Shown here: in pieces, positions 41,008 to 53,496 of the stretch
Layout: every line of letters begins with the position of its first letter
Numbering within the stretch: position 1 is the stretch's first letter
Source of the DNA: Melaminivora suipulveris
GTDB taxonomy: Bacteria > Pseudomonadota > Gammaproteobacteria > Burkholderiales > Burkholderiaceae_C
Length of the DNA: 64,000 bases
Assembly: GCF_003008575.1 (NCBI RefSeq)
Contig: NZ_CP027667.1
Span: 3,434,001-3,498,000 of the forward strand
Direction: 5' to 3'
Position numbers and translations under genes: made by a program
Notes under the pieces: generated by a model
Seen by the model: only the letters and a program-made list of their open reading frames with translations
What the model was told of the DNA's origin: nothing
The model's database searches: none

Positions 41008-44000
41008 CGGCCGCCGCTGCGCTGCCCGGCTACGCCGAGCTGCATGCCTTGAGCTGTTTTTCCTTCCAGCGCGGCGCCTCGCATCCGCATGAGCTGGTCG
41101 AGCGCGCCCATGCCCTGGGTTACCGTGCCCTGGCGCTGACCGACGAATGCTCCGTCGCCGGCGTGGTGCGCGCCGATGAGGCGGCGCGCGAGCTGGGCCT
41201 GCAGCTGATCCTGGGCAGCGAGTTCTGCTGGGGCGAGCTGCGCATCGTCGCCCTGGCGCGCGACGCCCAGGGCTGGGGCGATCTGTGCGAGTTCATCACC
41301 GCCGCCCGCGCGCGCGGCCCGCACAAGGGCGGCTATCTGGTGGACCATCAATCGCCCTGGGCGCTGCTGCGCGGCGGGTGCGAGGTGCTGCTCGCCCCCC
41401 GTCGCGAGGCATTCGATGGCGCTATGGATTTAATAGCTATAAACCGTTGTTTGACGGCGGCTCATGCCCTTTTTGACCCAAAACAATGCTGGCTGGCCGT
41501 GGAATTGCACCTGGCCGCCGACGATGCGCTGTGGCTGCAGACGCTGGCGCAGGCCGGCGCGCAGCTCGGCCTGCCGCTGGTGGCCGCGGGCGACGTGCAT
41601 CTGCACGTGCGCAGCCGCAAGCCGCTGCACGACGTGATGACCGCCGTGCGCCTGGGCCGCGGCGTGGCCGAGTGCGGGCGCGAGCTGCAGCCGCACGCCG
41701 AACGCCACCTGCGCGCGCGCAGCCAGTTGGCCGGCCTGTACCCGGCGCCGCTGCTGGCGGCCACGCTCACCATTGCCGCGCGCTGCGGCTTCAGCCTGCG
41801 CGAGATCCGCTACCGCTATCCGCGCGAGAGCGTGCTGCCCGGCATGGACGCCGCGCAGACCCTGGCCTGGCTGACCTGGGAGGGCGCCCGCGCGCGTTAT
41901 CCGCAGGGCGTGCCGCAGGCCGTGCGCGAGCGCATCGCGCACGAGCTGGCGCTGATCTCCGAGTGCGGCTACGAGATGTACTTCCTCACCGTGCACGACA
42001 TCGTGCGCTACGCGCGCAGCCAGGGCATCCTGTGCCAGGGGCGCGGCTCGGCGGCCAACTCGGCGGTGTGCTTCGTGCTGGGCATCACGGCGGTCGATCC
42101 GGCGCAGTCGCATCTGTTGTTCGAGCGCTTCATCAGCAGGGAGCGCGGCGAGCCACCCGACATCGACGTGGACTTCGAGCACGACCGGCGCGAGACCGTC
42201 ATCCAGTACCTGTACACCCGCTACGGCCGCGAGCGCGCGGCGCTGACCGCCGTGGTCATCCGCTGGCGCACGCGCAGCGCGCTGCGCGACAGCGGCAAGG
42301 CGCTGGGCCTGCCGGCACGGCTGATCGACGCCTTCGCCAAGGACCACCACTGGTTCGACGACCTGCGCGCTGCTGAGCATCTGCTGGCGCTGGCTGCCGA
42401 GCTGGGCGAGACCATCACCGACCGCCAGGCAGATCTGTGGCTGACGCTGGCCGGCCAGCTGCGCGGCATGCCGCGCCACCTGAGCCAGCACGTCGGCGGC
42501 TTCGTGCTGACCGAGGACAGGCTGACGCGCCTGGTGCCGGTGGAGCCTGCCGCCATGGACGGGCGCTCCATCATCCAGTGGGACAAGGACGATCTGGACG
42601 CCATGGGCCTGCTCAAGGTGGACGTGCTGGCTTTAGGCATGCTCAGCGCGCTGCGCCGCTGCCTGGAGGCGCGCGCCGCGCTGCGCGGCGCCGCCTGGGG
42701 CCTGGCCGACATCCCGCAGGAGGACGCCGCCACCTACGCCATGGCCTGCGCGGCCGACACCGTGGGCGTGTTCCAGATCGAGAGCCGCGCGCAGATGGGC
42801 ATGCTGCCGCGCCTGCAGCCGCGCACCTTCTACGACCTGGTGGTGCAGGTGGCCATCGTGCGCCCAGGGCCGATCCAGGGCGGCATGGTCCACCCCTACC
42901 TGCGCGCGCGCCAGCGCCAGCGCGAACTGGCGCGCGCCGGCCACGCCGGGCCGTACCCGGCGGAGTTCCCGCAACTGGCCCACATCCTCGGGCGCACGCT
43001 GGGCGTGCCGATCTTCCAGGAGCAGGTCATGCAGGTCGCCGTCGACGCGGCCGGCTTCACGCCGGGCCAGGCCGACGGCCTGCGCCGCTCCATGGCCGCG
43101 TGGCGGCGCAAGGGGGGCGTGCACGCCTACGAGCAGCAACTCAAGGACGGCCTGGCGCAGCGCGGCTATCCGCCGGATTTTGCCGAGCAGCTGTTCCAGC
43201 AGATTCTGGGTTTTGGCGAATACGGCTTTCCCGAAAGCCACGCCGCCAGCTTCGCCCTGCTGGTCTACGCCAGCGCCTGGCTCAAGCGGCACGAGCCGGC
43301 GTGCTTTCTGGCGGCGCTGCTGAACGCCCAGCCCATGGGTTTTTATCCGCCCGCGCAACTGGTGCAGGACGCGCGCCGCCACGGCGTGCGCGTGCTGCCC
43401 GTCGACGTGACGGTCAGCGAGGTGGATTGCACGCTGGAGCCGCCGCTGGAGCCGCTGCCCAACGTGGAGCAGCCCCAGCCCGCCGTGCGCCTGGGCCTGC
43501 GCCTGGTGGCGCAGCTGTCGCAGTCCGGCGCCGCGCGGCTGGTGCGCGAGCGCGCGCACGGCGGTCCCTTTACCGGCACCGAAGACCTGGCGCTGCGCGC
43601 GCAACTGACGCGCGGCGACCTGCAAGCGCTGGCCGCCGCCGATGCGCTGCGCGCCCTGTCGGGCCACCGGCGCCAGCAAATGTGGGACGCGGCGGCGCAG
43701 CTGCCGGCCACCGCGCTGCTGCGCGCCGCCCCCGTGGGCGAAGCGCGCCTGGAGCTGCCCGCCGCGCCCGAGGGCGAGGACATCACCTTCGACTACGCCG
43801 CCACCGGCCTCACCCTGCGACGCCACCCGCTGGCGCTGCTGCGCGGGCGCCTGGCGCGCCTGCGCGTGCGCACGGCGCTGCAACTGCACGCCACGCAGGA
43901 TGGCCGCCAGGTGCGCGCCTGCGGCATCGTCACCGTCCGCCAGCGCCCAGGCTCGGCCGGCGGCACCATGTTCGTCACGCTGGAAGACGAGACCGGCCCG

Positions 44001-44213
44001 GTCAACGTCATCGTCTGGCCCCAGGTCATCGAACGCTGGCGCGAGCCACTGCTGCGCGCGCGGCTGCTGGCCGTGCAGGGACGCTGGCAGCGCCACGTCG
44101 AGCCGGATTCGGGCACGGCCGTGTGCAACCTGGTGGCGGCGCGCCTGCACGACTGCACGCCGCTTCTGGGCCGGCTGGCGCGGGCGCTGGGCGGCAGCCG
44201 CGACTTCCATTGA
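41004..44213 (+). CDS. dnaE2: Error-prone DNA polymerase DnaE2 (ImuC)
   Basis: A 1069-residue C-family polymerase that performs mutagenic translesion synthesis. Order: PHP domain (YAELHALSCFSFQRGASHP), catalytic palm with Asp386 and Asp388 (EPPDIDVDFEH), GRGSAANSAVC, fingers, then a C-terminal OB domain (VRACGIVTVRQRPGSAGGTM). Start 41004 overlaps the imuB stop. Residues about 139-161 (GAMDLIAINRCLTAAHALFD) are encoded by an AT-rich copy of the dispersed repeat, in a poorly conserved PHP-domain loop. The frame stays open through it, so the protein is probably still functional. Confidence 0.95.
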   Translation: MTAAAALPGYAELHALSCFSFQRGASHPHELVERAHALGYRALALTDECSVAGVVRADEAARELGLQLILGSEFCWGELRIVALARDAQGWGDLCEFITAARARGPHKGGYLVDHQSPWALLRGGCEVLLAPRREAFDGAMDLIAINRCLTAAHALFDPKQCWLAVELHLAADDALWLQTLAQAGAQLGLPLVAAGDVHLHVRSRKPLHDVMTAVRLGRGVAECGRELQPHAERHLRARSQLAGLYPAPLLAATLTIAARCGFSLREIRYRYPRESVLPGMDAAQTLAWLTWEGARARYPQGVPQAVRERIAHELALISECGYEMYFLTVHDIVRYARSQGILCQGRGSAANSAVCFVLGITAVDPAQSHLLFERFISRERGEPPDIDVDFEHDRRETVIQYLYTRYGRERAALTAVVIRWRTRSALRDSGKALGLPARLIDAFAKDHHWFDDLRAAEHLLALAAELGETITDRQADLWLTLAGQLRGMPRHLSQHVGGFVLTEDRLTRLVPVEPAAMDGRSIIQWDKDDLDAMGLLKVDVLALGMLSALRRCLEARAALRGAAWGLADIPQEDAATYAMACAADTVGVFQIESRAQMGMLPRLQPRTFYDLVVQVAIVRPGPIQGGMVHPYLRARQRQRELARAGHAGPYPAEFPQLAHILGRTLGVPIFQEQVMQVAVDAAGFTPGQADGLRRSMAAWRRKGGVHAYEQQLKDGLAQRGYPPDFAEQLFQQILGFGEYGFPESHAASFALLVYASAWLKRHEPACFLAALLNAQPMGFYPPAQLVQDARRHGVRVLPVDVTVSEVDCTLEPPLEPLPNVEQPQPAVRLGLRLVAQLSQSGAARLVRERAHGGPFTGTEDLALRAQLTRGDLQALAAADALRALSGHRRQQMWDAAAQLPATALLRAAPVGEARLELPAAPEGEDITFDYAATGLTLRRHPLALLRGRLARLRVRTALQLHATQDGRQVRACGIVTVRQRPGSAGGTMFVTLEDETGPVNVIVWPQVIERWREPLLRARLLAVQGRWQRHVEPDSGTAVCNLVAARLHDCTPLLGRLARALGGSRDFH
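41418..41480 (-). repeat. Dispersed repeat, copy G, inside dnaE2
   Basis: On the minus strand it reads AGCCGCCGTCAAACAACGG, then TTTATAGCTATTAAATCCATAGC, that is, the same order as the other copies. It is preceded by GGGTCAAAAAGGGC as in copy F. Its AT content stands out against the GC-rich dnaE2 gene. It keeps the frame. Confidence 0.75.
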
Positions 44214-44253
44214 GTGCATGGGGCGGCTTGCCCGCCGCACGCGCCCGAGCCGC

Positions 44254-45507
44254 TCAGGCGCCGGGCGCGGGCAGCTGGCGGCGCCAGAAGCCGGGCAGCA
44301 GGTCGGCCAGGGGGGTCGGCTCGCGCTGGAGCTGGTGGGCAATGATCGAGCTGCCGATGGTGGGCACGGGCGAGCCCGGATCCACGCGTGCGAGCTGCTG
44401 CATCCAGTAGATGTTCACGCCGCCCGCGGGGTCGGGCCGGGAATAGATCAGCGCCAGCATCTTGTGCGCCTGGGCACTGCCACGCTGCTCGGCCAGGCGG
44501 TAGAAGCGGATGGCTTCCGAGAAGTTGGCCGGCACGCCCTCGCCGCGGTGGTATTTGCGCGCCTGCGCCAGGGCCGCTGCCGCCTCGGCGCTTGCGGACG
44601 GCTCTGGCGGACGGGCGTCGCCTGCGCCGGCACGCGCCTGCAGCTCGCGCAGGTTGAAAGCCGCGGCGGGCGACTGCGCGGCGACCTGGCGGAAAAACAG
44701 CTCGGCCTGGTCCGCGCGCCCCTGGCTCACGGCGCCCATGCCCAGCTCGATCCGGGCCTGCAGATCGCCCGCCGCCGCAGCCTTCTTCAGCAGCGGCAGG
44801 TTGGACGCGGGCGGCTCCTGCGGGGTGACGCCCGGCCGCGCCACCTGCACCTGCGGCTGGCGCGACGCCAGCAGCCATGCAAGAAAATCGGCGCGCGCGG
44901 GGTGGCGCGGGCGCAGCAGCGCTATCTCGCGCTCGGCAGCGCCCGGTTTGGGCGGGCCGACGCAGCCGTCGATGTGGCACCAGGCCAGGCCGGCGTACGC
45001 CCAGGGCTCGCGCCCGAAGCGCGCCGCCTGCTCGAACCAGCGCTGCGCCTGGGCCGCGTCCTGGCGCACGCCCGCCCCGTGCAAATAGACCAGGCCGAGC
45101 TGCCACGCCGCCTGCGCCGACGCCACCGTGCTGCCGATGGGCTGCGCCGCCCGCACCAGCCGCTGCAGCTCGCGGTCGATGGCCTGCTGCCGTTGCGTAT
45201 CCGCCGGCCTCAGCGCCGCGTGGCCCACGGTGGCCGCGTCGATCGTGGGCGCATCGTTGGCCGGCCGCCCCTGCATGGGCGCCGTCCCAGGCGCCGGCGC
45301 CTCGATGGTGGGCGTGGCGACGCTGCGCCGCTCCATGCGCGCCGGGGCAGGGGGCGGCAGCTCCAGTTGCGCCACCACGATCGCCCTGGGCCGGGCTTCG
45401 GCCGCCACCGGTTGCAGGTCGGGCGCCAGAGCGGCCAGCAGTGCCGGTGCAAGGCCCAGGAGCGACCTGCGCCGCAACGCCGCCGGGCGCCGCAATGCGT
45501 TGTGCAT
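44254..45507 (-). CDS. Sel1-repeat exported protein
   Basis: A 417-residue protein with an N-terminal signal-like segment preceded by RRRSLLGLAPALLAAL, which could be a Tat-type leader. Sel1/TPR-like repeats occur at about 145-195 (AWQLGLVYLHGAGVRQDAAQ), 230-300 and 315-390 (AQARKYHRGEGVPANFSEAI). Such repeats scaffold protein complexes. It is the last gene of a minus-strand set with a CsgG-like lipoprotein, so it may assist assembly or secretion. The 112-bp gap to the lipoprotein gene has no terminator. Confidence 0.8.
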   Translation of the reverse strand: MHNALRRPAALRRRSLLGLAPALLAALAPDLQPVAAEARPRAIVVAQLELPPPAPARMERRSVATPTIEAPAPGTAPMQGRPANDAPTIDAATVGHAALRPADTQRQQAIDRELQRLVRAAQPIGSTVASAQAAWQLGLVYLHGAGVRQDAAQAQRWFEQAARFGREPWAYAGLAWCHIDGCVGPPKPGAAEREIALLRPRHPARADFLAWLLASRQPQVQVARPGVTPQEPPASNLPLLKKAAAAGDLQARIELGMGAVSQGRADQAELFFRQVAAQSPAAAFNLRELQARAGAGDARPPEPSASAEAAAALAQARKYHRGEGVPANFSEAIRFYRLAEQRGSAQAHKMLALIYSRPDPAGGVNIYWMQQLARVDPGSPVPTIGSSIIAHQLQREPTPLADLLPGFWRRQLPAPGA

Positions 45508-45619
45508 GATGCTTCAGGGCCCTGGGTTGGAGGTTGGTTGAAGAAGGGCGGGGCGGGTGGGCGGCGGTGCATGGCGCCGGTGTCGGGGCGATGGGTGCAC
45601 GGCTTTTCCAGTCAGGACG

Positions 45620-47302
45620 CTACTGGCGCTGCGCTGGCGCGCCGCCGTTGGCCTGGGCCGCCTTTCGCGGCCCGACCGTCCACTGCACGCTCTGCGTCAC
45701 CAGCCCCTCGGGCCCGGCGACCTCGGCGAAGCGCTCGCGCAACTCGTCCAGCGTGCGCACCGCCGGCATCCGCGCCAGCGGCGGGGTGCGCATCTGCGGC
45801 GCCATCTTGTGCAGCGCCTCCTCGGTGGTGGCCAGGCACATCACGGCCTCGGTTCCAGGGCGGCCGGCATCCAGGATGAAACCCGGATTGGGCGCCATCC
45901 AGTCGGGAATCCGGATCGCCTGATTGGCCGACACCAGCGTGTGCGGCTGCAGCAAATTGGGCAGCAGGCGCATGATGGCGCCAGCGGAATCGGCGAAGTA
46001 GCAGTACAGGTGCGAGGCGCGCGAGATGGTGGACGACAGGAAGATCTGCTCGCCTTCGTCAAAGGCCGGCCGCTCCCCGGCTGGCTGGGGGTTTTCGATC
46101 TGCAGGTCGATGGCCCAGCGCGCGGGTTTGGGCGGGCTCGGCCGCGCCGCCCTGGGGTCATCGCCCGCGGCAGCCGCCACGACGGGCTGCAAGTCGGCGC
46201 CATTCCAGCCCATGCGGGCCAGCGAGCCGTCTTCCGCCAGGCTGACGAAGTTGCCCAGCGCTGCCTCGTAGGTCGGGAAGTCGACCGTGCCGCTGACGGG
46301 AATGCCCCGATCCGCCTGAAACCTGGCCAGGGCGTCGCGCATGTCGGGATGGGCCACGCCCAGCTCGCCGCTGGCCGCGGGCAGGTAGCCCTGGCTGATC
46401 AGCGACGAGCGCAGCAGCTGGAACTGCCCCCCCGAGCCGCTCTCCACATACCACTCGCGCATCTGGCGCTGGAACTGCGGATGGCTCTGGTCCAGCGTCA
46501 GGCACTGCCAGTAGGGAACGCGCGCCCACTTGCCCACCAGTTCGATCATGGCCAGGTCCACCAGCGTGCGCAGCGCCGCGCCGGTGCCGACGGCGTAGTC
46601 GCGCCCGACGTTGAAGCGCACGCCGTAGCTGCCGATGCGCCCGCCGAGGTCCACGCCCTGGCCCCCGCTGCCGATCACCACTTCGTTGGCCGAGTCCAGG
46701 CCCGGGATGATGGTGCGGGTGCGAAAGTCGCCCAGATGCACTTCCAGCGCCACCACGGTGGCGTTGCGGCTGCGGCTGTAGCCCAGGTCCACGCGCGTGC
46801 CCGAGACGCCGGTGTCGAAGGTGTTGTTGATCACGCCCTGGTCCACGAAGGCGATGGCGCCCGAGACGTACAGCGCAGGGCGCTGCAGCTGCATCTGGTT
46901 GTTGTTCAGCAAGATGGTGGTCAGGTTTTGCACCGTGTCCTGGCGCGCGATGTCCACCTCGAAGTCGACGAAGCGAAACGCATTGCTGATGCGCGACATC
47001 TGCGACAGCGCCGTGATCACCATCTCCTTGGTGGCCGCTGGCACCTTGCCGGAGAAATCGACGAACTGCTTGCTGGTGATGAGCGTGGTGGGCAGCTCGG
47101 CGGCGCGCAGCATCTGGTCCATGCACATCAGGGACTGCGAGAAGCTGGAGACGGAGCGCACCGGCCGCACCACGGGCCGGTCGGCGACCGAGGCCGCCTC
47201 CTGGTAGGCGGCGTCCTTGCGCGCGTCCATCGGGGTGGCGCAGCCTGCCATCGCTGCCGCGACGGCCAGCGCGGCCAGCCAGCCGCCGGCTGGCCGGCGC
47301 AT
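45620..47302 (-). CDS. CsgG-like outer-membrane lipoprotein with peptidoglycan-binding and DUF4384-like domains
   Basis: A 560-residue lipoprotein (Cys21 after AAAMAG). Residues about 55-267 resemble CsgG/HfaB secretion pores: SGAIAFVDQGVIN, and near the end GTGAALRTLVDLAMIELVGK. About 295-350 resembles PG_binding_1 (DALARFQADRGIPVSGTVD), and about 396-495 resembles DUF4384 (ASHLYCYFADSAGAIMRLLPN). This is an unusual fusion. The start follows the short exported gene without its own ribosome site. By analogy it would form the export channel for the secreted repeat protein encoded upstream; this is inference. Confidence 0.85.
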   Translation of the reverse strand: MRRPAGGWLAALAVAAAMAGCATPMDARKDAAYQEAASVADRPVVRPVRSVSSFSQSLMCMDQMLRAAELPTTLITSKQFVDFSGKVPAATKEMVITALSQMSRISNAFRFVDFEVDIARQDTVQNLTTILLNNNQMQLQRPALYVSGAIAFVDQGVINNTFDTGVSGTRVDLGYSRSRNATVVALEVHLGDFRTRTIIPGLDSANEVVIGSGGQGVDLGGRIGSYGVRFNVGRDYAVGTGAALRTLVDLAMIELVGKWARVPYWQCLTLDQSHPQFQRQMREWYVESGSGGQFQLLRSSLISQGYLPAASGELGVAHPDMRDALARFQADRGIPVSGTVDFPTYEAALGNFVSLAEDGSLARMGWNGADLQPVVAAAAGDDPRAARPSPPKPARWAIDLQIENPQPAGERPAFDEGEQIFLSSTISRASHLYCYFADSAGAIMRLLPNLLQPHTLVSANQAIRIPDWMAPNPGFILDAGRPGTEAVMCLATTEEALHKMAPQMRTPPLARMPAVRTLDELRERFAEVAGPEGLVTQSVQWTVGPRKAAQANGGAPAQRQ

Positions 47303-47303
47303 G

Positions 47304-47516
47304 CCGGTGGGCGCGCCGCGCAGTGGTCGCGGTGATGTTGCAAAGCTCCCGGCGCTGGACCAGCGCGTATGACCCCGCCGGGCGCGGAGTCGGCAACTGC
47401 AGGTAGTTGACCCTGCTGTTGACGATCACCGGGTCCTCGCCAGGCGCGGCCGGGGCCAGGCCGGCAACTGCCAGGCCCGCCACCAGAGACAAAACCTCCA
47501 ACGTCCTGGACTTCAT
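47304..47516 (-). CDS. Short exported protein, 3' end unresolved
   Basis: A strong ribosome site (AAAGGAGG, 6 nt before ATG) and a signal peptide (MKSRTLEVLSLVAGLAVAGL, cleavage near LAPAAPG) support translation from 47516. The mature start is EDPVIVNSRVNYLQLPTPRP. After about 60 residues (YALVQRRELCNI) the frame becomes Arg-rich and has no stop until 46158, running antiparallel in sense over the lipoprotein gene. The true end is therefore unclear: a frameshift or long overlap. I list only the supported 5' part. A role as a minor fibre or chaperone component is speculation. Confidence 0.5.
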
Positions 47517-47541
47517 GGCGATCCTCCTTTCAAGCGTCAGA

Positions 47542-47571
47542 GAAAACCTGGCTGCCCATGGGCAGCCAGGT
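47542..47571 (-). terminator. Hairpin between the repeat-protein gene and the export genes
   Basis: ACCTGGCTGCC, loop CATG, GGCAGCCAGGT form a perfect 11-bp stem; on the minus strand TTTTCTC follows. It lies 9 bp after the repeat-protein stop and 25 bp before the next start, so partial termination would keep the export genes at a lower level than the fibre protein. Confidence 0.85.
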
Positions 47572-47579
47572 ATTGCCGG

Positions 47580-48605
47580 TCAATTGCTGGAAGCGGTGTT
47601 CCAGCAGTAGCCGGTGGGGCAGTCGGGGAGCTTGAACTTGGGCGGATCGCAGGCATCGTTGGAGGCCAGGTTCTGCACGGCGACGCTCTTGCCGCCATTG
47701 GCCCAGTTCATGACCGTGCCATTGACGGTGGTCATCTGCGTGGAGCTGCCGGCAATGGTCACGTCGCCAAAGTTCGACGACAGGTTCTGGAACGCCTGCG
47801 AGCCGACCCCATTGGCCTTGTTGGTCACCGTGCCGTTGGTGCCAGCCACGGTCTGCGTGGAGCTTCCTCCGTGCGCGATCTTGGTGCCGTCATAGTTGCT
47901 GGCGAGGTTTTGCACCGCCGTGGTCTTGGCGCCGCTGGCCGTATTCGACACGGTGGTGCCGGTCAGGCTGACGCTTTGCTTGCTCTTGCCGTCCACCGTC
48001 ACCTTGCCGGTGTTGCTGGCCAGGGCTTGCACCGCGATGGCGCCGGCGCCGGTGGCTTCGTTGGACACCGTGCTTCGGGTCAGGGAAGACTCCTGCTCGC
48101 TGTTTCCCGTGACCGAGACGTTGCCCACGTTGCTCGACACGTTCTGCATCGCGCGCGCCACCTTGTCGCAATCGACACCATGGCAGTTGGTGCTGCCGCT
48201 GCCATTGGCGACGTTGGATAGCGTGCCTCCGGTCATCGCGGTGGTCTGCTTGGACTTGCCGCCGTTGGTCATGCTGAAGTCGCCGTAGTTGGACGAGACG
48301 TTCTGCACGGCGATGTCGCCTGCGTTTTTGGCGTGGTTTTCAACCTCGGCTTTGCTGGAAAGGGTGGTTTCCTGGGTGGACTTGGTGTTGCTCGCGATGT
48401 TGATGTTCCCCCGGTTGCTCGACAGATCCTGGATGGCGGTGGCGTTGGCGTCCGCCCGGTTGTTGGCCTGCGAGCCGGAGTTCACCGTCACGGTCTGGCT
48501 GGAGGTTCCCGAGATGGAGATCTTGGGACTCGTGGCCAGCGTCGGCTGGGCGAATGCCGTTGCTGAAGCGATGGCGCTCAGCGCGAAGAAGGCAAGCGAT
48601 TTCAT
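47580..48605 (-). CDS. Secreted repeat protein, candidate curli-like fibre or adhesin
   Basis: A 341-residue protein with a signal peptide (MKSLAFFALSAIASATAFAQ) and GGAG before the ATG. The mature part consists of about six degenerate repeats of 38-45 residues with consensus AxQNLSSNxGxVxIxGxSxQ, then NGTVxNxANG, plus partial units at both ends. It is rich in Asn, Ser, Thr, Gly and Val. Five Cys occur: two in an insertion (NCHGVDCDK) and three in the tail (DACDPPKFKLPDCPTGYCW). Repeats with alternating hydrophobic and Ser/Thr/Asn/Gln residues suggest a beta-solenoid or amyloid strand stack. The adjacent CsgG-like gene supports export as a surface fibre. Confidence 0.85.
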   Translation of the reverse strand: MKSLAFFALSAIASATAFAQPTLATSPKISISGTSSQTVTVNSGSQANNRADANATAIQDLSSNRGNINIASNTKSTQETTLSSKAEVENHAKNAGDIAVQNVSSNYGDFSMTNGGKSKQTTAMTGGTLSNVANGSGSTNCHGVDCDKVARAMQNVSSNVGNVSVTGNSEQESSLTRSTVSNEATGAGAIAVQALASNTGKVTVDGKSKQSVSLTGTTVSNTASGAKTTAVQNLASNYDGTKIAHGGSSTQTVAGTNGTVTNKANGVGSQAFQNLSSNFGDVTIAGSSTQMTTVNGTVMNWANGGKSVAVQNLASNDACDPPKFKLPDCPTGYCWNTASSN

Positions 48606-49327
48606 GGAGTTTCTCCAAAATGATGTCTGTGAAAATCCGAAGTCTGTTTGCGTGAACAAATTCGCCTCGGCGAGCGACTTGGCCCGTCCCTCCCGGAATC
48701 TGGCCGGAGGGCCCTGGAACCTTGTCGCCTTCAGTGTCGGCGCCGCACGGGCCGTAAACAATCATTAAAACCATCTGCCTGACCGGAGGATGGTGCAGAC
48801 AGGTTGTTACATCAGCAGAATGGGCCTCAGTCGGCGTGGATATTAACTCATTAGCTATTAAAATAGTAGCGTTCTGGGTGCCCCGATAGGGTAGAAACGA
48901 AACGGATCAAAAGTAACTCGAAGGAATATAAGTGCGGTGCGGGTTCAAAAGCATGTCTCGCTCATTCTCCAAAAACGATTTCTCCAGCAGTCTCCCTCTC
49001 TTGGGCGTCGTGGCAGCTTCCAGGTGCTGCCAGCGCCAGCGCAAAATCACGATCCAGGACGTTGAAAGAAGCGGCATCGATTCAAAATGACGCAGCTCAG
49101 CGATTTTGACCAGATGGGCTGGAGCGGTTGCGAAACAAAGGACGCCTTTAACCACCGGTACCGAAGTCTGGCGTATTTATAAAGGTTACTTGTGTAATTG
49201 AGCAAAAATATTTCAATGGCCAGATTTTTTTGGGTGTACTTTGTTTCGTGTGGAAGCAAGCGCCTGCGAAGGCGCTCATTCCAGGCGGAGAAATTACACA
49301 TTCATGTACATTTGAAAGACTATTGCA
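48606..49327. other. Long divergent intergenic region of the curli-like locus
   Basis: This 722-bp gap separates the repeat-protein gene from the response regulator. Its right half (about 48890-49327) is markedly AT-rich. It holds repeat copy H and presumably both promoters. Short open frames in it (for example 48907-49155 minus) lack convincing ribosome sites. A large regulated intergenic region is also found between csgD and csgBA in enteric bacteria. Confidence 0.55.
48822..48872 (+). repeat. Dispersed intergenic repeat, copy H
   Basis: It reads GGCCTCAGTCGGCGTGGATA, then TTAACTCATT, then AGCTATTAAAATAGTAGCG. It is among the best-preserved copies and gives the clearest terminal inverted element. 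Confidence 0.85.
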
Positions 49328-50110
49328 ATGACTCCCCCTGTGGTTGAAAGCGACGCGGCACCGGTCGCACCCTTGCATGCCCGGCGGGGTCAATTCGCCA
49401 TGCATCCCGGCCCGGCCGCCATGTGGCCGGACTTCCTGGCCGGGCAGGTGGACAAGCCCGTTCGGGTCCTGCTGGTGGACGACGACGCGCACATGTGCCG
49501 CGTCATCGCGAACGAGTTGATGGCGGACACACGCACGCTGCTGGTGGGCCAGGCGGGCAGCGTGGCCGAAGGGCGCAAGGCCATCAGGCAGCACCAGTTC
49601 GACGTGCTGCTGCTGGACCTGCACCTGGGCGACGGTCTGGGCTTCACGCTGCTCGACCTCATGAAGTCCGTGCGTCCGTCGGCCGAGGCCATAGTCGTGT
49701 CCATCATGGAGTGCGACGACCAGGTCATGCGGGCGTTCGAGCTGGGCGCCGCGGGCTACCTGGTCAAGAACTCATGGTTTGGCAATTACCCGCAGGCGGT
49801 GCTGCAGGTGGCCAATGGCGGCGCCTCCATCACGCCCCACCTCGCGCGGCGGCTGCTGCAGCGCTTTGACCGAGGCTCGGCTGACGAGCCGCTCAAGCCC
49901 CGCGCGAACACCGAAAGCGCCTGCCTGTCGCCGCGGGAGAAAGAGGTGCTGCGCATGGTGGCGGGCGGCTACGTCACCGCCGAGATAGGCAGCCAGCTGC
50001 ATATCAGCGACGTCACCGTGAACACCCACATCAAGAACATCTACCGCAAGCTGCAGGTGCGCACGAGGGCCCAGGCGGTGCGATTTGCTTCGCTGCGCGG
50101 ACTGTTCTGA
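49328..50110 (+). CDS. NarL/LuxR-family response regulator
   Basis: A 260-residue regulator with a non-conserved 40-residue N-terminus, a receiver with phospho-Asp97 (LLLDLHLGDG), and a C-terminal LuxR-type helix-turn-helix (about 195-255, LSPREKEVLRMVAGGYVTAE). The ATG at 49328 or internal ATG codons at 49400 and 49421 could be used. It is divergent from the repeat-protein gene and followed by a kinase gene, so it is the likely local regulator, comparable in position to csgD. Confidence 0.92.
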   Translation: MTPPVVESDAAPVAPLHARRGQFAMHPGPAAMWPDFLAGQVDKPVRVLLVDDDAHMCRVIANELMADTRTLLVGQAGSVAEGRKAIRQHQFDVLLLDLHLGDGLGFTLLDLMKSVRPSAEAIVVSIMECDDQVMRAFELGAAGYLVKNSWFGNYPQAVLQVANGGASITPHLARRLLQRFDRGSADEPLKPRANTESACLSPREKEVLRMVAGGYVTAEIGSQLHISDVTVNTHIKNIYRKLQVRTRAQAVRFASLRGLF

Positions 50111-50137
50111 ACGGGTGGCGGCGGACCGGGGCACGTG

Positions 50138-51097
50138 ATGATGCGAGGCGAGCCAGGGGCGAAACGCACGGCGCAGGGGTCGGCGGCGTGGCCTTTTGCC
50201 TTCCCCTGGTCGCGGCCTTTTGCCCGCGCCCTGGCCTACCTGAGCCTGTGCGGCGTCCAGGTGGCGATGGCCCTGGTGTCGCTGTTGTGGGCCGAGGGGT
50301 GGGCTGCGCAATCGGTGGGCGCGTGGCAATCCGCCCAGCTGGTGCTGGCCGTTGTCCTGTGCATGCTGCTGCTGGGCAATTTCCTGCGGGTGCTGCGTTG
50401 GCGTCCCCGGCGCAGCAAGCGGGCCACGCCAGAGGTGGTGCAGGAGAGGTGGCGCATCGCGCAGGACCTGCACGACCATGTCGGCTCCCAGCTCGTGGGC
50501 GCCATGGCCCTGCTGGACGTCGGGGATGCCGCCACCCAGCCCCTGGCGCAGGCGCTGGAGCAATGTCTGCTGGACTTGCGCCTGCTGGCGGATTCGATGG
50601 ACGGCGAAGACGAGGCCTTGCCGCAGCGCCTGGCACGCCTGCGCCACCGCCTGCAGCCGGTGCTCGATCGCCGCGGGATAGCCCTGTGCTGGCAGGTTTC
50701 CCTGGCGCCTGATTTCCCCTGGCCCGTGGGCGAGCCGGCGCGGCAGGCCAGCGCCATCGTCCAGGAAGCCATCAGCAACGTCCTGCAGCACGCCGGCGCC
50801 ACCCGGCTGAGCGTGGTGCTGCAACCCTGGGGCAGCCCGGGCGACCAGGAATGGCGCCTGCAGATCAGCGACAACGGCTGCGGCATGGCCCAGCCCACGC
50901 CGGGCAGCAGGGCGCAGGAAGGGATGGGCTGCAGCGGCATGCGCCGCCGCGCCGCCGGCCTGAAGGCCCAGCTGGAGTTTCTGCCGGCAGCCAGCGGCGG
51001 CCTGTGCGTGCAGATGACCGTGCAGGTGCCCCGGCCCGCCAGGGACGGGCTGCGCTCCACAGGCGCTGCGCTGCAGCGCGGCACGGAGTTTTCCTGA
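50138..51097 (+). CDS. Sensor histidine kinase (NarX/DegS-like, HisKA_3)
   Basis: A 319-residue kinase with two hydrophobic helices (about 31-52 and 66-84) and little periplasmic sequence. The phospho-acceptor His112 lies in RIAQDLHDHVGSQLVGAMAL. The ATPase domain has an N-box (VQEAISNVLQHA) and ISDNGCGM. It would phosphorylate the regulator 27 bp upstream. Adjacent GTG 50135 and ATG 50141 are alternative starts. Confidence 0.9.
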   Translation: MMRGEPGAKRTAQGSAAWPFAFPWSRPFARALAYLSLCGVQVAMALVSLLWAEGWAAQSVGAWQSAQLVLAVVLCMLLLGNFLRVLRWRPRRSKRATPEVVQERWRIAQDLHDHVGSQLVGAMALLDVGDAATQPLAQALEQCLLDLRLLADSMDGEDEALPQRLARLRHRLQPVLDRRGIALCWQVSLAPDFPWPVGEPARQASAIVQEAISNVLQHAGATRLSVVLQPWGSPGDQEWRLQISDNGCGMAQPTPGSRAQEGMGCSGMRRRAAGLKAQLEFLPAASGGLCVQMTVQVPRPARDGLRSTGAALQRGTEFS

Positions 51098-51162
51098 GCC
51101 GCTGCGGGCAAGCCATGCGCCTCGGCCGCGCCGCCGCCTGACGGCGCGCCAGGGACGGCGCC

Positions 51163-53496
51163 TCATCGGCTGCGTGCAGCGCGCGGGTCTTGTGGCGCGG
51201 TTTTGCCCTGCACCGGCGCCAGCAGCTTGGCGCAGCTTGCGTCATCTTCCGCGCCCGGCACGGTGATGGGCACCAGCGCCAGCGCGGCCGGCGCGACGGC
51301 GGCGGCAGCAATAGCGGCGCCGGCGCGCAGCAGCAGCGGCCCGGCGTCCACGCCGACCTGCGGGTGAGCGAAGGTGCCGCGCACGTGCAGCGGCGTGCGC
51401 AGCGAGAAGAATTTCCACTCCAGCGACTTGGGCTTGATGGTCAGGCTCATCTCCTCCTCGCCCAGGTCGATCAGCCCGGTCACGTCGACGATGGCCTCCT
51501 CGGTGTTGAGGCTGACCCGATTGGCGTCGGCCATGCCGTCCCGCACCCGAAAATCCGCCACCGCGCAGCGCAGCCGGACCTCCTTGTCGCCGCCGAACAG
51601 CTTGGTCACGATCACGCTGCCCAGGTTCAGCGCGGCCAGGTCCAGCATCTCCTTGCTGAAAGTGCCATCGCGGATGAACAGCCGCGTGCCGCCGTGACTG
51701 GTGGCCAGCATGGCGGCGATCGAGTCGCCCTGGCCCGCCAGCTGCAGCGAGCCGTCGAGCCGGCCAAAGCTCTTTTTCATCAGCTCCACCTTCGGAAACA
51801 GCGCCGACAGCTGCAGCCCCTCCACGGAGCCCTTGAGCGTAGTTTTGATCGGTTTGCTGCGCCCGTCGATCAGCACGTCCGAATCGATGCGCCCCTTGGC
51901 GAAACCGAAACGCAGCGGCACCAGATGCAACTGCCGGTCGTCGAGCACCGCGCGCACGCTCAGGCGCTCCAGCGGCAGCGCTTCGGGGCGGATGACGTGC
52001 TCGCCGGAGAACGCCAGGTCCAGGTCCATCGCGTCCCAGCGCCCGGTGGCGAAATGCACGTCGGGCAGCACCTTGCCGGGGCGCTTCTCGGTGCCCTTTT
52101 CTTGCGGGCGCTTGCCGCTGGGCGCGCCCAGCACCGGACCCAGGTCGGCCAGGCGCAGTTGCTTGGAGGTGACGTGGCCCTGCAGCTTGGGCCGTGGCTT
52201 GCCCGAGGCGTAGCTCACCGTGCCATGCAGGTCGCTGTCGCCCACGGTGCCGTTGAAGTCGCGGTACTCCCACACGGCCTTGTCGGGCGCCAGGCTGCCC
52301 AGCAGGCGGCCCTGCACCTCGAACGGCGGCGTGTTGGGCAGCACCAGACCGGTCAGCGGGAACAGGTCGGCCATGCTCTTGCCGCCCAGCAGCACCTGCA
52401 AATCCATGCCCGAGAGCGCGGCCGGGTTGTTCAGCACGCCCTCGACCTGGGTGTGCACGCTGCCCGAACGCGCTGCCAGCTTGAGCGGAAACCGCACCTC
52501 GCGCTCTCGCAGTGCCAGCACCGGCCCGGCCAGGCCCTCGCCCTGCACGGCCGCCTTGCCGTACTGCCCTTGCAGGGCCACGCGCACGCCGTAGCGGCCG
52601 CCCTCGGTCTCGGGTGCGCCGTGCTCCAGCGTGTCCACGCGCGCGCGCAGCGCCAGGTTCTTGATGCCATCGACATAGCCCAGCCAGCCGCCGCGGATGA
52701 CGAGCTGGCCGACGCGCAGGTCCCAGGGGTTGTCGCCGCCCGGTCGCTCCTGGCCCTGCCGGGCCGTGGTGAAGGTCCAGTTGTTGCTGCCGTCCTGGCG
52801 CCGGGCGAAGGCGATATCGGGAGCGGTGAGCACGAGCGTGTCCAGCATCAGCGTGCGCGACAGCAGGGGCAGCAGGCGCAGCGTGGCGCTGGCGCTGCCG
52901 ATGGTGCCCATGTCCTGCGGCGGGCGGGGCGGGGGGGCGGCCTGCGGATCGTTGCCGGCCTCCAGCGCAGCGGCGCGCGCGGCCCTGGCGTCCGCTTGCG
53001 ACGCCGCTGCGGCGGGAGCGGATGCGGCAGGTGCGCTGGCAGCGGGCGCAGGCGCATCGGGGGCCGGCGCCTGCGTGTCGCCCCGGGGGGCCGGGCGGGG
53101 CGGCAGGGCGGGCAGACCGCCCGCCGCCTGCGCCGGCGCCTCGACCACGGCGAAGCCTTGCGGGTTGGACATCCGCAGCTGCTGCGCCTGCACCGTCACC
53201 CCCGGCACCCAGCGGCGCCAGCCGCTCTCCAGCGGCTGCGGCCAGTGCCAGCGCGCCGACAGGTCGCCCTCAATGGCGAACACGCGTCCGGTCGCGGCGC
53301 TGACTTTCTCGTTGATCCGCGGCTTGAGGCGGTTCCAGTCAAACGTGGCCACGAGCACGATGGCCAGCAGCAGCACGGCTGCCAGCGCCCCCAGCGCGAC
53401 CAGCGCCCAGCGCAGCAGGCGGTGCCCGCGCGCCGGCTGCCGCGGCTCAGAAGGCTGTCGGGACGGATGGGGGGCGGGGGAAGAGGAGGGCGTCAT
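51163..53496 (-). CDS. AsmA-family protein
   Basis: A 777-residue inner-membrane-anchored protein with one N-terminal helix (about residues 30-52, LVALGALAAVLLLAIVLVAT) followed by FDWNRLKPRINEKVSAATGR, which is the AsmA signature. An Ala/Pro-rich low-complexity linker spans about 115-160. The long beta-rich C-terminal part ends with a second hydrophobic stretch (GAAIAAAAVAPAALALVPIT). AsmA-like proteins act in phospholipid transport between membranes. The upstream open frame to 53796 is rejected. It is convergent with the kinase gene. Confidence 0.9.
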   Translation of the reverse strand: MTPSSSPAPHPSRQPSEPRQPARGHRLLRWALVALGALAAVLLLAIVLVATFDWNRLKPRINEKVSAATGRVFAIEGDLSARWHWPQPLESGWRRWVPGVTVQAQQLRMSNPQGFAVVEAPAQAAGGLPALPPRPAPRGDTQAPAPDAPAPAASAPAASAPAAAASQADARAARAAALEAGNDPQAAPPPRPPQDMGTIGSASATLRLLPLLSRTLMLDTLVLTAPDIAFARRQDGSNNWTFTTARQGQERPGGDNPWDLRVGQLVIRGGWLGYVDGIKNLALRARVDTLEHGAPETEGGRYGVRVALQGQYGKAAVQGEGLAGPVLALREREVRFPLKLAARSGSVHTQVEGVLNNPAALSGMDLQVLLGGKSMADLFPLTGLVLPNTPPFEVQGRLLGSLAPDKAVWEYRDFNGTVGDSDLHGTVSYASGKPRPKLQGHVTSKQLRLADLGPVLGAPSGKRPQEKGTEKRPGKVLPDVHFATGRWDAMDLDLAFSGEHVIRPEALPLERLSVRAVLDDRQLHLVPLRFGFAKGRIDSDVLIDGRSKPIKTTLKGSVEGLQLSALFPKVELMKKSFGRLDGSLQLAGQGDSIAAMLATSHGGTRLFIRDGTFSKEMLDLAALNLGSVIVTKLFGGDKEVRLRCAVADFRVRDGMADANRVSLNTEEAIVDVTGLIDLGEEEMSLTIKPKSLEWKFFSLRTPLHVRGTFAHPQVGVDAGPLLLRAGAAIAAAAVAPAALALVPITVPGAEDDASCAKLLAPVQGKTAPQDPRAARSR

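Follow-up and report, generated by a model that had tools for sequence, protein, structure and literature searches.

A probable CsgG-type export operon with a predicted beta-solenoid substrate in Melaminivora suipulveris

Within a 64,000-nucleotide stretch of the Melaminivora suipulveris genome (assembly GCF_003008575.1, contig NZ_CP027667.1, positions 3,434,001 to 3,498,000; the window hereafter), six genes at 44254-51097 probably make up an operon whose products form a CsgG-type outer-membrane exporter from a branch not yet described, in which the exported protein would be a self-stacking beta-solenoid. On the minus strand lie genes for a repeat protein (REP), the remnant of a small exported protein (SMALL), a lipoprotein (LPP) and a Sel1-repeat protein (SEL1), and on the plus strand those for a response regulator (RR) and a histidine kinase (HK) (Table 1). 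The kinship of LPP and the company its gene keeps suggest, as the likeliest function, that LPP forms a pore through which REP is exported, SMALL having an accessory role. We draw on sequence for the CsgG/HfaB kinship, the domain fusion, the gene cassette and a shared motif, and on a structure model for the predicted beta-helix; from these we infer a pore formed by LPP, export and polymerisation of REP, its possible amyloid nature and the regulation of the operon.

Somewhat less firmly, and with the balance only modestly in its favour, we propose a third CsgG-type export branch beside curli and Hfa, comprising a solenoid polymer subunit, a two-cysteine accessory and a wall-anchored pore with a DUF4384 cap. 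As proposed, this branch spans Comamonadaceae, Lysobacter and Magnetococcales, the Comamonadaceae mostly having their own two-component system, and includes a candidate operator ~290 bp before the subunit gene in about half of the loci.

Results

The lipoprotein and its kinship to CsgG and HfaB

LPP of the window carries a lipobox and two domains that had been proposed in the initial annotation and that Pfam places above its cut-offs, DUF4384 (45 bits, cut-off 27) and PG_binding_1 (27.3 bits, cut-off 23). Across the family, DUF4384 was matched in 40 of 40 members and PG_binding_1 in 39 of 40 (Pfam, E 1), while Cys 21 of the lipobox is invariant in an alignment of 40 sequences. The residue directly after the lipid-bearing cysteine determines the membrane to which a lipoprotein is sorted; in LPP this residue is alanine, which points to the outer membrane.

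Profile comparisons with hhalign relied on ten HfaB, five CsgG, three HfaA, four HfaD, one CsgE, two CsgF and two CsgA/B sequences. The N-terminus of LPP matched the HfaB profile over columns 8-262 (P 97.1, E 7.3e-11; HfaB reversed, P 1.6) and a combined HfaB and CsgG profile (P 97.1), and HfaB in turn matched CsgG (P 99.5). Far relatives of LPP alone also found HfaB (P 96.2, E 2.7e-9; reversed 0.2), as did a joint profile of near and far relatives (P 97.9, E 6e-13; reversed 0.8). A bridge protein in locus L054, 29 % identical to LPP, matches the NCBIfam HfaB family at E 0.0012; LPP itself has no NCBIfam match at cut-off and reaches HfaB (NF037935) over residues 16-100 at E 0.05, with 12.8 of 300 bits.

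When the AlphaFold model of LPP (mean pLDDT 66) was searched against the PDB with Foldseek, ranks 1-13 were all chains of CsgG or the curli complex (best E 8.6e-6). Long strand pairs are modelled at 144-192 and 206-231, and the membrane hairpins of CsgG are similar long strand pairs. The C-terminal part of the model is a beta-sandwich predicted with high confidence, which took up the VIA-align matches (393-548), the CsgG part being barely covered. Judged by profile and by this low-confidence fold model, the first ~260 residues appear to belong to the CsgG/HfaB superfamily and, with its lipobox cysteine and CsgG/HfaB-like domain, LPP falls within the looser superfamily class. The initial annotation was to be given up if neither HMM nor structure yielded a CsgG-fold match; the resemblance that it saw in the first ~270 residues stands by the HfaB profile and by Foldseek, and does not extend to PF03783 or to the NCBIfam cut-off.

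LPP might instead be a CsgG-fold envelope or cell-wall factor rather than an exporter, with REP, SMALL and SEL1 as periplasmic partners, which we think distinctly unlikely. The peptidoglycan-binding and Sel1 parts fit a cell-wall role, and the sub-threshold NCBIfam matches of HK include the envelope-stress kinase LiaS (43.6 of 450 bits). The sole PF03783 match of the genome (L001, G000:C1:1821794-1822294; 360 aa), far from the operon, has a weak LpoB match (E 0.24); it resembles LPP in its CsgG domain followed by PG_binding_1, and differs in being PF03783-positive and in lacking DUF4384. However, LPP aligns with HfaB over the whole domain, and its model has the long strand pairs of pore formers, which LpoB-type proteins are not known to have. 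LPP is also paired with a protein whose repeat number varies, as it does in curli substrates according to a 2012 curli survey (PMC3521004).

The repeat protein

REP was first described as a signal-peptide protein of about six Asn/Ser/Thr-rich repeats, and the description is borne out: its start resembles a signal peptide, the motif [AI]xQ[NSD]x[ASV][ST]N is present in six copies (mean 0.008, maximum 1, in 5000 shuffles of REP), and the sequence beyond residue 19 contains 14.3 % S, 12.7 % T and 11.5 % N. Structure prediction, which had been suggested as a check, gave a model (pLDDT 85.9, pTM 0.84) that is not a curlin but a predicted beta-helix, each turn of which takes up ~40 residues and about three strands. 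Foldseek against the PDB returned nothing at E 0.001 or below for this model. FapC was a weak match (rank 19, E 0.41); the Fap system (FapA-F) exports a repeat amyloid, and its FapF is an unrelated barrel. Curlin and HfaD were tried as identities for REP and dropped, no credible Pfam match and no profile match being found.

It is possible, though on our estimate unlikely, that LPP is a true exporter and REP a discrete beta-helix adhesin, like the passenger domains of HMW1, FHA and UpaB, and neither a polymer nor an amyloid. The number of repeats in the REP family varies from two upward, and in the Lysobacter loci L044 and L046 the protein is 98-99 aa long, with a signal peptide and two repeats. 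Because two repeats are too short for a lone stable solenoid, stacking of the kind that we propose seems likely.

Between REP and SMALL lies a hairpin (47546-47571; 11 pairs, 8 of them G-C, loop of 4) followed by TTTTCT, which possibly attenuates transcription, such that REP would be made in excess; a terminator scan found 5 such elements against 4.6 expected.

The small exported protein and a deletion in this genome

In 42 loci the SMALL position holds a protein of 130-157 aa with a signal peptide (gene starts in relatives were chosen by a simple script using hydrophobicity and the Shine-Dalgarno sequence). Two cysteines are invariant among 35 aligned sequences, the family pattern being C...[IV]G...G[DS][VL][IV]N..C, and SMALL is probably a disulfide-bonded exported protein. 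No Pfam family passed its cut-off, only weak chance matches being returned. CsgE, CsgF and HfaA were each considered as identities and dropped, neither near nor far relatives giving a Pfam or profile match.

The short exported protein of the initial annotation turned out not to be intact. What is left in the window covers model positions 10-64 of 139 (~56-58 residues) and is the sole SMALL match in the genome at E 10; its frame lacks a stop of its own and continues for 452 codons over LPP. The missing stretch amounts to ~340 bp against the intact operon of Oryzisolibacter propanilivorax (L002) and ~314 bp against that of Melaminivora alkalimesophila (L003). P0001, an LPP 99 % identical to that of the window, begins MSFATSPRPL, and the window has GGGAGC where ATGAGC would be expected; an ATG at 47302 still precedes the LPP signal peptide. 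From this single genome assembly, we conclude that an internal deletion of ~310-340 bp removed the C-terminal half of SMALL and apparently, given the altered codon, the usual start of LPP. With SMALL damaged, the export system may be impaired in this genome. Among the four other genomes of the genus, G001, G003 and G004 have the operon with a SMALL match along (nearly) its whole length and G002 is without LPP.

Conservation of the cassette

The 48 loci examined were fetched by their LPP match and are thus selected for LPP. REP lies upstream of LPP in all 42 loci with at least 1500 bp of upstream sequence, SMALL in 42 of the 44 with at least 700 bp, and SEL1 downstream in all 44 with at least 1300 bp downstream. 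In both SMALL misses, Lysobacter L044 and L046, the position is occupied by a diverged SMALL (P 97.9, E 3.6e-13). Conservation of the gene order, which the initial annotation had proposed as a check, is seen for REP and SEL1 and, less uniformly, on the regulatory side (below).

Within the family, 54 of 250 genomes gave an LPP-type match, 30 of them with an E no worse than 1e-160, and some of the matches listed contain one or two stops. SMALL and REP were each found in 30 of the 250, the same 30 as the strong LPP matches and at neighbouring coordinates; the repeat protein and the lipoprotein are thus conserved together, on which the initial annotation had made its proposal depend. A number of these genomes are close to, or the same as, those from which the SMALL and REP profiles were taken. 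Neither protein was matched at E 0.001 in the other 220 genomes and, since at least four of these hold diverged versions, the counts show pairing within the close family and not absence elsewhere.

Five more distant loci were fetched from 24 genomes with weaker LPP matches, and four of them (L102, L103, L104 and L108) have a repetitive exported protein and a SMALL-like two-cysteine protein just upstream of LPP. Near SMALL aligned with the SMALL-like proteins of these four at P 91.1 and E 1e-6 (reversed 0.2). Pfam confirmed DUF4384 in L103 and L108, and in the others only the reach of the LPP profile indicates it. Caspase-like proteins lie near distant LPP genes (Peptidase_C14 by Pfam in L108, by eye in L102), as do short proteins that by eye resemble anti-sigma or ECF sigma factors (L108, L102, L104).

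Across the phylum, an LPP match was obtained in 23 of 398 genomes, of which 16 belong to other classes. Among the seven best of these 16, one locus (L115) begins inside the gene; the six testable loci each have SMALL upstream together with one to three proteins resembling REP, the REP of L114 being cut by the locus edge. Near SMALL matched five other-class SMALL proteins at P 94.6 and E 7e-8, and P0188, which is named as a Magnetococcales protein, shares 100 % identity with the REP encoded in L110. On sequence grounds REP, SMALL and LPP form a conserved cassette, with diverged versions in Lysobacter and Magnetococcales.

Regulator, kinase and a candidate operator

Among the 39 loci that extend 4000 bp or more upstream, 35 have RR divergent from the operon; in L010 RR is on the other strand, and neither RR nor HK was found within the fetched DNA of L035, L041 and L046. 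Of the 38 loci reaching 5000 bp or more upstream, 31 contain HK. The two-component regulator first suggested is borne out as a divergent RR and HK conserved in most loci; RR itself is a response regulator with a receiver domain and not a CsgD, for which it scores 51 of 250 bits in NCBIfam, nine other families scoring higher. The membrane part of HK varies, with two segments in many loci and five to eight elsewhere (hydropathy count, 32 loci), and the regulator is uniform, as if the input signal had been swapped.

In 21 of 38 intergenic regions the motif GTWACTACC (8 of 9 or better) occurs at -310 to -265 relative to REP; the remaining 17 do not have it there. Across 200 shuffles the mean was 0.3 and the maximum 3, in a test that used the regions in which the motif was discovered and so is not independent, with shuffles that ignore kinship and RR starts that are approximate. 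In a two-strand scan, every close match to GTTACTACC had one orientation, and a GTTAC at 48913-48917 lies about two helical turns upstream of the window's GTTTCTACC. This element is a candidate operator through which RR perhaps acts.

Layout and surroundings

The open reading frames of the initial annotation are all present, and two Sel1 stretches were matched in SEL1. The regulator and kinase had been placed across a 722-bp AT-rich gap; their domains are confirmed, and the gap between REP and RR has 49.9 % GC against 68.2 % for the window. The genes bordering the operon are of the DNA polymerase III alpha type and AsmA. Within the fetched DNA, both are retained in only two of the 48 loci (L002, L032), with the polymerase gene also adjoining the operon in L062, L064 and L068, so conservation of the operon reaches further than that of its flanks. 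An Rfam scan of 44000-51300 gave a single match (E 0.09, 20.6 of 50 bits).

Table 1. Features of the operon and its divergent regulatory genes, with positions counted within the window
Feature	Position	Strand	Description
REP	47580..48605	-	Exported repeat protein of 341 aa, rich in Asn, Ser and Thr; beta-helix by prediction; putative substrate of the exporter
SMALL remnant	47343..47516	-	What is left of an exported two-Cys protein: its signal peptide and first ~56-58 residues
LPP	45620..47302	-	Lipoprotein, CsgG/HfaB-like + PG_binding_1 + DUF4384; 560 aa from the ATG used here
CsgG/HfaB-like domain of LPP	46517..47281	-	~Residues 8-262; hhalign to HfaB, Foldseek
PG_binding_1 domain of LPP	46262..46429	-	Residues 292-347; Pfam
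DUF4384 domain of LPP	45821..46063	-	Residues 414-494; Pfam; predicted beta-sandwich
SEL1	44254..45507	-	Exported Sel1-repeat protein, 417 aa, two Sel1 stretches
RR	49328..50110	+	NarL/FixJ-type response regulator, Response_reg + GerE, divergent
HK	50135..51097	+	Histidine kinase, HisKA_3 + HATPase_c
Candidate operator GTTTCTACC	48890..48898	-	8-of-9 GTWACTACC copy, 293 bp before REP start

Discussion

Comparison with curli and Hfa

The operon would work like curli or Hfa export but lacks the defining matches of both. It resembles curli in that CsgG is the top fold match of LPP, in its divergent LuxR-type regulator and in a repeat substrate rich in N, Q, S, T and G. It differs from curli in having no match to PF03783, the curlin repeat, CsgE or CsgF at the LPP locus, and in carrying a full two-component system there with no CsgD. 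In the model, a turn of REP has ~40 residues and about three strands, whereas a curlin turn has 23 residues and two strands. That CsgE, CsgF, CsgA and CsgB would not be recognisable had been suggested at the outset, and none was found by Pfam or hhalign; the proposed type VIII-like system with a fused pore thus keeps its CsgG/HfaB domain, its fusion and its cassette without the defining features of curli. The 2012 survey lists two betaproteobacterial curli systems, without csgD there, and treats non-specific CsgG matches as likely paralogues (PMC3521004).

The likeness to HfaABD of Caulobacter lies in a lipoprotein of the same superfamily beside small and repetitive exported proteins. LPP shows HfaB homology over the whole domain, but adds PG_binding_1 and DUF4384 and scores far below the HfaB cut-off. 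A divergent holdfast-anchor (Hfa) system, tethering polysaccharide through REP and SMALL, is to our mind very unlikely. HfaB is the nearest named family of LPP, HfaA and HfaD are reported to depend on HfaB for their surface location (PMC6707917), and G004, G022 and G150 carry a second locus that is closer to HfaB and includes a large repeat protein. Yet REP and SMALL are unrelated to HfaA and HfaD by profile (three and four sequences, respectively), and the two border genes are a polymerase and AsmA, no search for hfs polysaccharide genes having been made.

This second CsgG/HfaB-like locus (L054/L101 in G004, L105 in G022, L107 in G150) encodes a lipoprotein of 380-393 aa that matches the HfaB profile at E 2e-14 to 2e-15. 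Upstream are two further proteins, a small exported one (141-156 aa) and a large one made of repeats, which in L105 and L107 reaches 1190 aa; downstream in L054 is a Sel1-like protein (30.2 bits, cut-off 30.7). The arrangement parallels the LPP operon, yet its small and repeat proteins match neither SMALL nor REP.

Weighing the export reading

Several results weigh against export by a CsgG-type pore. Lipoproteins of the CsgG superfamily need not be exporters, and PF03783, the HMM check that had been suggested for LPP, matched none of 40 members at E 1. The CsgG-only profile gave P 0.6 against LPP, 1.6 against its far relatives and 7.4 against the joint profile, so LPP is tied to CsgG by way of HfaB and by its fold. 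The first 270 residues of the model have a pLDDT of 29-66 per ten-residue block, Foldseek ranks 1-13 have a TM of only 0.14-0.35 and are followed at rank 14 by an unrelated arrestin (E 4e-4), and the LPP sequence profile found nothing in the PDB at E 10.

The partner proteins add to these doubts. None of 35 SMALL members matched the CsgE- or CsgF-type Pfam families at E 1; by hhalign, SMALL gave P 0.4 against CsgF (two sequences) and 0.6 against CsgE (one sequence) and no match to HfaA (three sequences), while CsgE, CsgF and HfaA gave P 0.1-1.1 against the five other-class SMALL proteins. In the PDB the SMALL profile had one match at E 0.8, taken as chance. REP has no credible Pfam match, none of 29 members matched the curlin repeat PF07012 at E 1, and two PDB matches of its profile (E 0.34-0.44) were likewise taken as chance. 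By hhalign, REP against CsgA/B (two sequences of one locus) gave P 0.1, and SMALL or REP against HfaA and REP against HfaD gave P 0.2-11.7 over 7-23 columns. Copies adjacent to LPP supplied the sequences for the SMALL and REP profiles, which makes it easier for these profiles to find both proteins in that position. One of the five distant loci, L106 (G172), has a different protein upstream and neither REP nor SMALL.

Proposed mechanism

In the export system that we favour, LPP would be lipidated, reside in the outer membrane and oligomerise through its CsgG-like domain into a pore, which the peptidoglycan-binding domain would tie to the cell wall and to which the DUF4384 beta-sandwich would add an extra periplasmic part. 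REP would cross the inner membrane by Sec, remain unfolded in the periplasm, leave through the LPP pore and fold outside into a beta-solenoid, whose turns would pile up end to end and so build a fibre or coat on the cell surface. By analogy with CsgE, CsgF and HfaA, SMALL may be an accessory (gate, chaperone or anchor) and SEL1 a periplasmic scaffold, with HK and RR switching the operon, perhaps via the GTWACTACC element.

Significance

In the open-licence PMC literature, as far as the text available to us goes (PMC8072697 included), we found no description of a REP-SMALL-LPP cassette. Nor, in that literature, did we find CsgG together with DUF4384 or with a peptidoglycan-binding lipoprotein, or a curli or CsgG system of Comamonadaceae, Comamonas or Acidovorax; by title and opening of the abstract, no DUF4384 paper there concerned export.

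Where the sources that we searched name the proteins in question, they list them as 'DUF4384 domain-containing protein', 'peptidoglycan binding protein' or 'hypothetical protein'. If our reading is right, a share of environmental bacteria, magnetotactic ones included, would carry an unrecognised machine that builds protein coats or fibres. DUF4384, which in open-licence PMC papers mostly concerns caspase-like proteins to judge by their titles, would gain a place in export, a small two-cysteine family with a possible gate function would be added, and a pore with a built-in wall anchor would become available for comparison with CsgG. The operon is compact, which makes the idea directly testable by gene deletion.
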